Shown: positions 5,493 to 64,000 of the stretch, piece after piece
Layout of the letters: each line of letters begins with the position of its first letter
Position numbering within the stretch: the first letter of the stretch is position 1
NCBI GenBank assembly: GCA_009779925.1
Contig: WRAZ01000004.1
Span: 1 to 64,000 of the forward strand
Origin: Chitinivibrionia bacterium
Lineage (GTDB): Bacteria > Fibrobacterota > Chitinivibrionia > Chitinivibrionales > Chitinivibrionaceae
Length of the DNA stretch: 64,000 bases
Direction of reading: 5' to 3'
Notes under the pieces: generated by a model
The model's input: the letters and a program-made list of their open reading frames with translations, nothing else
Database searches by the model: none
What the model was told of the DNA's origin: nothing
Made by a program: the position numbers and the translations under genes

Positions 5493-6512
5493 ATGAGTAA
5501 AAAAATTACCGCTGTTTTGTCTCTTATTTCCGCAATGATAATATTCACTGCTTGCTCGGAACTTTTTATTAAAGAGGCGACGCTTTTGCCTGAGCAGGTC
5601 GTAAAGTTCGACGCTCAAGGCGGAACTCAGCCGTCCGACATCGTTGTAAAATACGGCGAAACAATAAATCTTCCCAACACGCAAAGGACGAATTACACAT
5701 TTCAGGGTTGGTTTAGTCAAAAAGAAAACGGTATTCGGCTCGGCGGCGTAGGCAATCGCGTAATCATATATTCCGACACCATATTTTATGCGCAATGGGT
5801 AGAAATTTCAATCGACGATCCGAACGATCCCAATGATCCCAATGATCCAAATGATCCAAATGATCCTAATGATCCAAATGATCCTAATGATCCTAATGAT
5901 CCTAATGATCCTAATGATCCGAATGATCCGAATTCCGATAGGGATGGTCTTACGCCGCAGACGGCTTGGGTGGTTTACGACGTTGCTACGTTGCAAACGG
6001 TCGGCTCCGGAACGGGCGGATGGACGCTTTCTGCGTACTATATACAAATTGCGCACATAGATTTGAGCGGAGCAGAGAATTGGATTCCGATAGGCGCAAG
6101 CGGTTCGCCTTTTGTCGGCTCGTTTGACGGCGGCGGATACTCAATAACAGGGCTTTCTGTCAATAATCCGAGCGGCGAAAATCAGGGAATGTTCGGCGTT
6201 ATAGGCGTTGGCGGCACGATAGAAAATTTGCGCCTCGAAAACGTAAATATTAACGGCAAAACTTTTGTCGGCGGTATTGCGGGGACTAATCGCGGCACGA
6301 TAGAAAGCGTTTTTGTCTCAGGCAATATAAGCGGCGACAGCGACGTCGGGGGAATTGCGGGAAATAATGAAGGTAAAATTTTGAATTCTCAGAGCCAAGC
6401 CGTCATTTTTGTCAGAGGCGCGAGAGAAGCGGTAAGCGAAAACTGGCGCGGAATAGTGGGACGAAACAGCGGAATAGTCCGGAATTCGGAAAGCAAGGCA
6501 AGTGGAAACTAA
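5493..6512 (+). CDS. Surface lipoprotein: InlB repeat, (DPN)13 linker, GLUG repeats
   Basis: 339-aa exported protein. Residues 1-20 are a lipoprotein signal with lipobox FTAC (Cys21). Residues 36-107 form one InlB-type repeat (VKFDAQGGTQPSDIVVKYGE..., ending FYAQWVE). Residues 109-147 are a DPN tripeptide repeated 13 times, which would be an extended acidic linker. Residues about 155-320 carry a GLUG-type beta-helix (GGIAGTNRGTIESVFVSGNI, then GGIAGNNEGKI). The stop directly abuts the ATG of the OmpA-family gene. Role is probably cell-surface adhesion or structure; no enzyme motif is seen. Confidence 0.82.
   Translation: MSKKITAVLSLISAMIIFTACSELFIKEATLLPEQVVKFDAQGGTQPSDIVVKYGETINLPNTQRTNYTFQGWFSQKENGIRLGGVGNRVIIYSDTIFYAQWVEISIDDPNDPNDPNDPNDPNDPNDPNDPNDPNDPNDPNDPNDPNSDRDGLTPQTAWVVYDVATLQTVGSGTGGWTLSAYYIQIAHIDLSGAENWIPIGASGSPFVGSFDGGGYSITGLSVNNPSGENQGMFGVIGVGGTIENLRLENVNINGKTFVGGIAGTNRGTIESVFVSGNISGDSDVGGIAGNNEGKILNSQSQAVIFVRGAREAVSENWRGIVGRNSGIVRNSESKASGN
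5817..5933 (+). repeat. 13 tandem 9-bp units (GATCCNAAY)
   Basis: Thirteen in-frame units of GATCCNAAT/C encode Asp-Pro-Asn. Only the fifth-to-sixth base and one third position vary. Units are a multiple of three, so slippage would change linker length without a frameshift. Confidence 0.95.
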
Positions 6513-61061: not shown

Positions 61062-61392
61062 AAGTGTAGGAATTTAAACCAACGTTTATTTTCCTATGCT
61101 TAATATATTACAAACTTTTGCTTTTTGCACAAATTTTTTACAAATCATTTTCTTTTATGAAAACCGACAAAGTTTTAGTGTCAACTTTCAATGTTTTTGC
61201 CATTTTTCGCCTATCCAATTGTTGATTTTCAGCTCGTTTTTGGTGCAGTAATTTTCAATCTCAAACATCTGATTTTGAGTTGTTTGTTTGTCGGTACTTA
61301 CCCGAATATATCCGTAAATCATAAAAAATCCTCCTTAAAAAAATTGGGTTAAAAGTGTAGGAAAATAAACGTTGGTTTAAATTCCTACACTT
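61062..61392. mobile_element. 331-bp segment between perfect 35-bp inverted repeats
   Basis: 61062-61096 (starting AAGTGTAGGAATTTAAACC) is repeated exactly and inverted at 61358-61392. The segment contains a truncated serine recombinase gene on the minus strand. The right arm itself has AGTGTAGGAA and TTCCTACACT at its ends, so each arm is partly palindromic. It may be an invertible segment, or the remnant of an insertion element. The rest of the 61.0-61.6 kb gap shows no other gene. Confidence 0.7.
61188..61322 (-). pseudogene. Truncated serine recombinase (resolvase N-terminus)
   Basis: 44-aa ORF starting at ATG 61322 after a strong AAGGAGG. IYGYIRVSTDKQTTQNQMFEIENYC is the resolvase/invertase N-terminal block with the catalytic Ser in RVST. 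The frame stops soon after (IGEKWQKH), before the rest of the catalytic core and the DNA-binding domain. It lies inside the 35-bp inverted repeats. A frameshift or deletion is the likely reason. Confidence 0.8.
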
Positions 61393-62096: not shown

Positions 62097-63362
62097 ATGA
62101 AAATTAACAACCTACTAAAACTACTGGCGATAGCACTATCCATCGCCACAAACCTATGGGCATTTGCAGGTGGCAACGGCACTGCCGCCGACCCGTTTAT
62201 AATTACGACAGCCGACCACTTAAACGCTGTGCGCAATAACTTGTCGGCACATTACAGGTTGGCAAACAACATCACCCTCACGGAAGAATGGGTGTCGATA
62301 CCTGAATTTAACGGAACATTTAACGGCGGCGGTAATACTGTAAGTGGAGTAAGAATTAACAACACCCTAAACAACCAAGCGTTTTTCAGCGTTATGAACG
62401 GAGCAGTTAAAGGCTTGTTGCTTGACGTTGATATTACGGGCGGGATTTTCGTTGCTGCATTAGCTGCGGTAAATTGGGGAACGATTGAGGAGTGCAAGGT
62501 TTCGGGGGTTGTAAAAGGCGCATTGATTGGTGGTTTGGTAGCCGAAAACAGAGGCGCTATCAGAAATTCATTTTCTCTGGTGGAGACGACAGCGCAGTTT
62601 ATCCTCGAATTTCCTGTGGTCACGTCTCTTCCTTCAAATCCTGTAGAAGGTCAAGGGGTGCGGCTTCGTGTTGAGCATAATACAATTACCGCGCGATCTA
62701 CTTATATAGATTTGGTTTATGTTGCACCCGGAGAGTTTACGCAAGGGGGAGCGCATTTCGGCGACAATAATACTCGCCCTGTCAGATTAACGCAAGGATT
62801 TTGGATTGGCAGATATCCGATAACGCAGGCGCAATGGCAGGCAATAATGGTAACTAACCCGTCAGCATTTACAGGAGCAGGTCGCGAAAATCACCCTGTA
62901 TCTAATGTAAGTTGGAACGACGTACAGCCATTTATAGCGGCAATCGGCGCGCGCCTTCCGACGGCTGCGGAGTGGGAATTTGCAGCCCGCGGCGGTAATA
63001 GGCGCGACCCTTTTGCTTGGGCAGGAAGTGATAATGTGGATGATGTTGCTTGGCATAATATGCACCCTGATCGCATTCCCAATCAGACAATGCCTATTGG
63101 GCTGTTAGCACCGAATGGTTTGGGGATTTTTGATATGAGTGGTAATGTACAGGAATGGGTTAGCGATTTGTCGATGCTTTGGACGACAACAACAACAACA
63201 GCGGTAAATCCTACGGGTGGTACTACAGGCTCTAATCGCGTGGTACGCGGCGGCAGTTGGAGCCACGGTGCTTCTCACGCCCGTGTGGCTAATCGGTCCA
63301 ACGGCAACCCCGACGACGGGAGGGTCCGCGGCTTCCGTGTTGCGTTCTCCCCCCAGTTCTAA
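62097..63362 (+). CDS. Exported GLUG + SUMF1/FGE-fold protein, probable DGR target
   Basis: 421-aa protein, signal peptide about 1-22. Residues 25-190 are GLUG-like beta-helix repeats (GGGNTVSGVRI, IGGLVAENRGAIRN). Residues about 205-421 form a formylglycine-generating-enzyme/SUMF1 fold: YVAPGEFTQGG, FWIGRYPITQAQWQAIM, PVSNVSWNDVQPFI, RLPTAAEWEFAARGG, NVQEWVSD and VVRGGSW. The end runs GGSWSHGASHARVANRSNGNPDDG, then GFRVAFSPQF, the arrangement of C-type-lectin-fold variable proteins of diversity-generating retroelements. Catalytic Cys of true FGE is not evident. Role is probably ligand binding at the surface. Confidence 0.85.
   Translation: MKINNLLKLLAIALSIATNLWAFAGGNGTAADPFIITTADHLNAVRNNLSAHYRLANNITLTEEWVSIPEFNGTFNGGGNTVSGVRINNTLNNQAFFSVMNGAVKGLLLDVDITGGIFVAALAAVNWGTIEECKVSGVVKGALIGGLVAENRGAIRNSFSLVETTAQFILEFPVVTSLPSNPVEGQGVRLRVEHNTITARSTYIDLVYVAPGEFTQGGAHFGDNNTRPVRLTQGFWIGRYPITQAQWQAIMVTNPSAFTGAGRENHPVSNVSWNDVQPFIAAIGARLPTAAEWEFAARGGNRRDPFAWAGSDNVDDVAWHNMHPDRIPNQTMPIGLLAPNGLGIFDMSGNVQEWVSDLSMLWTTTTTTAVNPTGGTTGSNRVVRGGSWSHGASHARVANRSNGNPDDGRVRGFRVAFSPQF
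63261..63329 (+). other. Candidate DGR variable region (codons 389-411)
   Basis: Between invariant GGSW and GFRV the residues Ser389, His390, Gly391, Ser393, His394, Ser401, Gly403, Gly408, Arg409, Val410 and Arg411 are spaced as in DGR variable sites. Their codons (AGC, CAC, GGT, TCT, CAC, TCC, GGC, GGG, AGG, GTC, CGC) are what random replacement of the A residues in AAC/AAT-rich template codons would yield. No template repeat or reverse transcriptase lies in this window. Confidence 0.6.
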
Positions 63363-63413
63363 CACTTGCTGTTCGGATGTTTGGCTCTTTCTTTGAGTTG
63401 AAAAAACGGCTTT

Positions 63414-63462
63414 GGCTCAGTGTTGTCGTTGTGAGCGTTAGCCACTACGACTACTCTGAGCC
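63414..63462 (+). terminator. Long hairpin downstream of candidate DGR target
   Basis: 63414-63429 pairs with 63447-63462 (14 of 16 bp; GGCTCAG with CTGAGCC at the base) and a 17-nt loop, about 50 bp after the stop codon. No T-run follows, so it is not a clear terminator. Hairpins downstream of the variable region are a known part of DGR homing. Confidence 0.55.
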
Positions 63463-63523
63463 GAGGCAGCTTCGAATGGCGATATTATGAAAAATGAGGA
63501 AAACAAAATAAAGGAGAAATAAA

Positions 63524-64000
63524 ATGGAACGAAGTAAAAACACTAATGTTTTTCAACGAAACAAACTCAAAAACGTCGTATTGTTGCTCGCAATGACAAT
63601 AACCGCCGCAACAGCATCGTCGCAATTTTCTTTCGGCGGTTTGGTCGGGACAAATTTTGGAATTATCGAAAACAGTTATTCGGCGGGAAAGGTCACCAAT
63701 ACTTCTTTTGTCGGTGGTTCAGGCGGATTAGTCGGACGAAACCAAGCGGGTATTACCACCATCGCCATCACCAATTCGTTTTTCGACAGTGAAATTACCG
63801 AACAATCCGACAATGACGGCAGAGGAATTCCGCGTACTACCGCACAAATGCGCCAACAAGCAACATTTATCGGCTGGGACTTTAACGATATTTGGGACAT
63901 TAACCCCAATATAAACAACGGTATGCCGTTTTTACGTATAAATAATAACGAAGGCGGCACATTTATCCGCCCCCGCCAACCCACCGACACCCGATACGGC
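63524..64000 (+). CDS. GLUG-repeat surface protein, 3' end outside window
   Basis: 159 codons visible from ATG 63524 (AAAGGAG upstream), no stop before the window ends. Signal peptide about 1-33 (VVLLLAMTITAATASSQ). GLUG repeats are seen as FGGLVGTNFGIIENSYSAG and GGLVGRNQAGITT, followed by the common post-GLUG sequence SFFDSEITEQSDNDGRGIPRTTAQMRQQATFIGWDFNDIWDIN. The first 12 residues (MERSKNTNVFQR) resemble the start of the LolA-like protein (MKRSKNAYIFQK), pointing to a shared leader segment. Likely a repetitive surface protein. Confidence 0.8.
   Translation, partial: MERSKNTNVFQRNKLKNVVLLLAMTITAATASSQFSFGGLVGTNFGIIENSYSAGKVTNTSFVGGSGGLVGRNQAGITTIAITNSFFDSEITEQSDNDGRGIPRTTAQMRQQATFIGWDFNDIWDINPNINNGMPFLRINNNEGGTFIRPRQPTDTRYG

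Follow-up and report, generated by a model that had tools for sequence, protein, structure and literature searches.

A probable orphan target gene of a diversity-generating retroelement in a Chitinivibrionia bacterium, and complementary repeat flanks that may address HRDC-class retroelements to their targets

The first 64,000 nucleotides of contig WRAZ01000004.1 from a Chitinivibrionia bacterium (assembly GCA_009779925.1; this whole stretch is called the window) carry near their right end a gene that had been proposed to be the target of a diversity-generating retroelement (DGR). The gene is an open reading frame (ORF) of 421 amino acids on the plus strand (62097–63362). Its product has a leader-like N-terminus, hydrophobic by eye, followed by a beta-rich part, and ends in an FGE-sulfatase domain of the C-type-lectin fold, which a search of the genome for this family placed at 62709–63344 (PF03781, E 1.7e-40). 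Its best match in the PDB is 2y3c, the DGR variable protein TvpA of Treponema denticola (E 1.8e-23). The C-terminus reads RVVRGGSW-SHGASHARVANRSNGNPDDGRVR-GFRVAFSPQF, which is the layout that the original prediction had described (RVVRGGSW, a variable run, then GFRVAFSP), and the PF03781 and 2y3c matches place the variable residues in what would be the C-type-lectin-fold C-terminus of the protein. The same prediction had taken 63237–63362 as the variable region; the variable codons do lie inside it, within the narrower interval 63261–63329, and the variable repeat (VR) as a whole spans 63228–63354 when aligned to the template repeats (TRs) of 2 other contigs of the genome, C3 and C49. The GLUG repeats attributed to the gene amount to only a marginal match (E 0.013, below the Pfam cut-off), and the clear GLUG protein is encoded by the next ORF, which starts at 63524 (E 4e-7). 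As had been noted, the window contains no reverse transcriptase and no TR for the gene; both types of element exist elsewhere in the genome.

The source genome (G000) is available as a draft assembly of 2.50 Mb in 88 contigs that is 97.61% complete. The motif of DGR reverse transcriptases is (I/V/L)GxxxSQ, and the only reverse transcriptase above the Pfam cut-off in this genome, encoded on C3, carries the motifs LPIGNLVSQ and YMDD. The C3 DGR is intact: it consists of an FGE variable protein, an HRDC accessory gene, the reverse transcriptase and a TR, and its VR and TR differ over 70 nt at 14 adenines and at no other base. A second cassette on C49 (L029:2987-5283) has an intact VR, variable protein, HRDC gene and TR, with 17 adenine differences and no others over 70 nt. 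Its reverse transcriptase frame encodes 191 amino acids with an internal deletion, and the alignment covers query residues 1–132 alone. Because the VR and TR of this cassette differ only at adenines, either it was active recently or it is served by the C3 enzyme. Rows of the VR–TR comparison that came from L072, or from a short tandem repeat within L029, were discarded as artefacts. The search of this genome for the FGE family gave 16 matches.

When the window VR was compared with the sites at which the C3 and C49 TRs agree, changes were found at 16 of 27 adenines and at 9 of 63 other positions (Fisher p 3e-5). The changed AAY codons (Y, pyrimidine) all keep a pyrimidine at the third base, in 9 of 9 cases against the C3 TR and in 10 of 10 against the C49 TR. 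The adenine replacement in AAC/AAT codons on which the original prediction was built is thus beyond chance. The test comprised ten rows, C80 and C85 being excluded as seemingly out of register, and gave p 1e-8 and 1e-11 for the cassette VRs of C3 and C49, respectively, p 5e-7 for the paralogues on C77, C5, and C58, and p 0.0011 for the one on C76. The FGE paralogue on C11, which is without the address motif described below, also shows a weak adenine excess (p 0.015), and the A-site test alone is therefore not fully specific.

Two further elements follow the window VR on the plus strand. The first is the flank at 63355–63400, which lies at the place of what we call the address, the stretch of 15–40 nt downstream of the VR that in HRDC DGRs is the reverse complement of the stretch downstream of the TR. 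The flank ends in TTTGAGTTG, and the exact sequence TTTGAGTTGAAAAA occurs 5 times in the genome, each time just 3' of a VR (C4, C5, C49, C76, and C80). With one mismatch allowed there are 10 further matches, which include the C3 VR and unrelated places. The window flank is a partial complement of the C49 TR flank, with a reverse-complement (RC) score of 23 against it and of 19 against the C3 TR flank, the cognate TR being absent from the assembly. Against the C49 TR flank, the VR flanks of C76, C80, and C5 also score 23, and those of C11, C77, and C85 score 26, 19, and 18, respectively; the same VR flanks score 14 to 19 against the C3 TR flank. The second element is a long hairpin at 63409–63467 (folding z −5.9) with the apex GTGAGCGTTAGCC. 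The apex pattern GYGAGYGTKAGCC has 4 matches in the genome, all 3' of VRs, and most HRDC-class VRs are followed by such a second hairpin, its apex resembling GAGGGACGA (for example, L118:8867-8965). A looser pattern for this element matched 50 of 67 VR flanks and none of 67 TR flanks, a descriptive count because the expression was written after viewing the sequences. An ordinary FGE paralogue that was never a DGR target, with a C-terminus shaped by the normal divergence of a surface family, would fit the 16 FGE matches in the genome, the lack of a cognate TR in the assembly and the adenine excess of the address-less C11 paralogue. It would not account for the strength of the A-site excess and the retained pyrimidines, for the occurrence of the two 3' elements elsewhere in the genome only after VRs, or for a DGR variable protein as the closest PDB match, and we consider it highly improbable. 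Fold, A-biased footprint and 3' target elements agree with one another, and together they support the proposal that the window gene encodes a DGR variable protein.

The window VR fits no TR of the assembly. Over 100 nt, 26 non-A violations set it apart from the C3 TR and 24 from the C49 TR, which rules out that either of them acted on it recently. A 57-nt pattern admitting every possible TR for 63255–63311, with up to 3 mismatches, matched the window alone in the assembly. A DNA search returned related VRs on C76, C80, C77, C85, C11, and C5 and no template among them, and the framework codons of these orphan VRs differ mostly at synonymous sites (by eye), indicating that these VRs do not stem from recent copying of a single TR. 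The original prediction had proposed a genome search for a reverse transcriptase and a matching TR, and had named the lack of both, together with the absence of A-specific variation between strains, as evidence against it. The outcome lies in between, with a DGR reverse transcriptase and 2 TRs in the genome, neither TR fitting the window VR. A covariance model of the TR RNA (see below) matched C49, C3, and, as a third place, C18 (L287:1501-1643, which is C18:34011-34153; E 3.9e-6), the next match having an E value of 0.06. The C18 match adjoins a toxin-antitoxin-like gene pair. It was rejected as a third TR, as by eye it is nearly identical to the 3' part of the C49 scaffold and has neither TR nor address, and from its sequence it is possibly a DGR relic rather than the template of the window VR. 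Consulted for variation at A sites, the same-genus genome G029 gave no match. A third DGR, with its TR in an assembly gap or on another replicon, might instead have the window VR as its live target. The draft state of the assembly would allow this, and the orphan VRs lie on short contigs and have a common flank; but the assembly contains neither a second intact reverse transcriptase nor a third TR RNA with a TR, and the mostly synonymous framework differences are unlike the product of repeated copying from one template. We regard such a third live system as unlikely.

From these sequence comparisons, the window gene probably encodes a surface-type protein with a tip that was once rewritten, and is probably an orphan target for a DGR of the HRDC class, in a genome that elsewhere holds an intact DGR (C3), a DGR with a deleted reverse transcriptase (C49) and what may be a TR-less relic (C18). 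An ancestral TR, related to the C49 TR but distinct from it, would have been copied into the window VR with random bases opposite its adenines. This TR would later have been lost, or would lie in an assembly gap, and the window VR would then have drifted. Besides the adenine excess of the C11 paralogue, 2 points weigh against an orphan target: the window flank matches no TR of the assembly well, and the footprint was read from one draft assembly and speaks to past rather than present activity. In itself, the window gene is a modest case. VR-like FGE genes were also observed on C85 (L033, near 2066-2202) and C58 (L248); they have no stop and run into a GLUG-type protein, and they are without the address motif, as though the flank had been deleted.

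The complementarity between VR and TR flanks was analyzed in DGR loci retrieved with an alignment of five reverse transcriptases, using the best 80 of 350 loci from genome_contigs (genome group) and the best 80 of 224 from IMG/VR (viral group). VR–TR pairs were obtained by a mechanical rule in 110 of 170 loci, giving 155 pairs with flanks. Each pair was compared with 200 dinucleotide shuffles (floor p 0.005), and pairs with a TR on the minus strand were left out of this test (2 of 5 from the source genome and its order relatives, 4 of 74 from the genome group, and 0 of 76 from the viral group). The RC match was at the floor p in 3 of 3 pairs of the source genome and order relatives, in 62 of 70 genome-group pairs and in 4 of 76 viral pairs, or, counted by locus, in 49 of 55 genome-group and 4 of 46 viral loci. 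Direct flank matches reached the floor in 0, 3, and 0 pairs of the three sets, respectively. Complementary flanks are present in C3, C49, and the genome G029. A palindromic hairpin as the source of the RC match was rejected for most loci, because in the genome group the direct score has a median of 15, which is the null level, versus 34 for the RC score. The p values of the viral group are not uniform (Kolmogorov–Smirnov p 1.6e-4), and this group may contain a weak complementarity signal.

The presence of complementary flanks goes along with the type of accessory gene. An HRDC-like gene was found in 79 of the 80 genome_contigs loci, including all 49 positive ones, and the C3 and C49 loci carry an HRDC gene beside the reverse transcriptase; the accessory queries gave no match in 78 of the 80 viral loci. 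Judged by record title, the HRDC class comprises Fibrobacteria-Chitinivibrionia, Bacteroidetes, Chlorobi, and some other candidate lineages. Among 11 named loci, which include BPP-1, 9 have Avd, 1 has Avd and HRDC, and 1 is without a match, and the RC p values are at least 0.19 except for one L277 row (0.02) and BPP-1. The locus with both Avd and HRDC (L276) showed no flank complementarity, but its repeats ended early at an indel. The complementarity of BPP-1 (L234) is borderline (score 23; p 0.003 with 3000 shuffles, and 0.023) and joins the RNA immediately downstream of the TR to part of the VR hairpin, namely its loop and right arm.

In silico, the addresses favor their own TR. In the four genomes with 2 DGRs that both gave pairs, the own TR scored best for 13 of 13 VRs. 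Over 14 nt, 36 distinct addresses, from the 64 of 73 rows retained after a selection on RC score and position, are 90.7% Watson–Crick paired versus 47.4% with the TRs permuted (the largest of 500 permutations being 55%), and several address columns show all four pair types. Counted in 68 of 73 pairs from 53 loci, matching is approximately 100% at 0–4 nt from the TR end, 96% at 5–9 nt, and approximately 85% thereafter, and the mismatches comprise 84 of the type that would be G.U between the TR RNA and the sense strand of the VR and 7 of the mirror type (69 and 6 when each locus contributes a single pair). Where one TR has several VRs, the complementarity is retained. Two other explanations of these flanks were weighed. 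They could form an antisense pair, the TR RNA binding the 3' end of the target messenger and regulating it. The complementary stretch would be in both transcripts and RNA–RNA pairing tolerates G.U too, but the stretch starts exactly at the end of the TR/VR homology, where matching is best, and is preserved among multiple VRs that share a TR; regulation of this kind seems to us quite unlikely. Very unlikely, in our judgement, is that the flanks are the passive trace of an integration that writes an inverted copy of the TR flank at the VR and have no pairing function. This would explain the reverse complementarity and the covariation without selection, but a written copy would not favor G.U-type over mirror mismatches, unless there were a mutation bias.

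The RNA downstream of the TR has further features in common between loci. The 125–165 nt after the TR align across 33 loci with 17 predicted pairs, and for 16 of these pairs one or more sequences carry a change on both sides. The covariance model built on this domain (R1) found it in 32 of 35 further HRDC-group loci outside the alignment and in 1 of 80 viral loci, a weak match (E 0.008) in L154, which is one of the two viral loci with an HRDC-like gene. Rfam gave no match at the gathering threshold in the flanks of 8 loci. The TR RNA of HRDC-class DGRs is thus predicted to end in a conserved structured domain. Addresses and scaffold together lead us to infer, from sequence, RNA-addressed retrohoming as the mode of target recognition. 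The TR RNA would find its own VR through its 3' flank, which would pair with the sense strand, either DNA or messenger, just 3' of the VR, and the paired strand would position or prime cDNA synthesis at the TR end. This last step is the weakest of the proposal; it would account for the closer matching beside the end of the TR. Overall, we favor, by a small degree, that HRDC-class DGRs use RNA-addressed hypermutation, in which a TR RNA would pair with the sense strand just 3' of the target gene through a guide of 15–40 nt, held by a conserved scaffold, and may position or prime the mutagenic cDNA.

Several observations weigh against RNA-addressed hypermutation. Complementarity fails in 8 of the 70 genome-group pairs (L077, L097, L106, L108 with one VR, L116, L135, L136, and L145 with one VR) and is found in 4 of the 76 viral pairs. 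L070, a real DGR that was dropped from the shuffle test, fails the flank test (RC 15, direct 88). The G.U excess could result from a C-to-T mutation bias, and the 12 multi-VR loci, with 9 C-to-T, 1 A-to-G, and 1 G-to-A changes, do not settle this point. Finally, the stem after the BPP-1 VR is changeable in sequence, according to the available parts of PMC3240598, and sequence pairing is therefore not general to DGRs.

Outside BPP-1, target finding by DGRs is, to our knowledge, incompletely understood. Among HRDC DGRs, that of T. denticola is the best known. In the accessible text of PMC4891356, this DGR has an FGE-like C-type-lectin variable protein (TvpA) and an HRDC accessory gene; some of its targets are remote, and others are left over where the core has been lost. 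That text does not mention complementary TR/VR flanks. BPP-1 (mtd), as described in the available portion of PMC3240598, shares A-directed mutagenic retrohoming and a hairpin directly 3' of the VR that is a target determinant, but it uses the Avd accessory protein, and its stem sequence may vary, structure and loop being what matters. Thiohalocapsa PB-PSB1 similarly has several DGRs per genome, some of which have lost the reverse transcriptase, with targets in trans or orphaned; in the sections of PMC10907252 at hand, however, its trans targets match the TR at all non-A sites, whereas the window VR matches no TR in this way. In group II intron retrohoming, the RNA first picks its DNA target through a short stretch of base pairing and is then reverse transcribed, as proposed here for HRDC-class DGRs. 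The difference is that no ribozyme was found in the DGRs studied and that the address flanks a replaced repeat rather than an insertion site. As far as the accessible parts of PMC4891356, PMC3240598, and PMC10907252 go, HRDC accessory genes are already known, as are hairpins that follow VRs and targets that are remote or left over. The open-access literature searched gave no account of complementary TR/VR flanks, which are unmentioned in the available text of PMC12875486, PMC8144416, PMC10053308, PMC6642488, and PMC3521204; an earlier description is possible, and our claim to novelty is accordingly weak. If RNA addressing holds true, one cell could run several DGRs without cross-talk, and new genes could be enrolled by gaining an address. 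A strongly covarying, guide-like address would open the choice of target to experiment and the TRs of orphan VRs to a search, and it would suggest programmable targeting.

Other features were observed in the genome and in the window. The reverse transcriptase frame at L028:7328-8527 continues through the TR, so that its C-terminus resembles a piece of an FGE domain. A coding repeat, VGAG.ARP...GGQTPPL, is inserted in many unrelated proteins of the source genome (for example, at C4:64115-64198 and L028:7226-7290), and its DNA looks palindromic. One palindromic repeat was looked for in the window and gave no match. At 61062–61392, inverted repeats of 40 nt (95%) surround a short element with a 44-amino-acid frame, the start of which resembles a serine recombinase by eye (MIYGYIRVSTDKQT). 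A 9-nt repeat, GATCCNAAT, occurs in tandem at 5808–5951.
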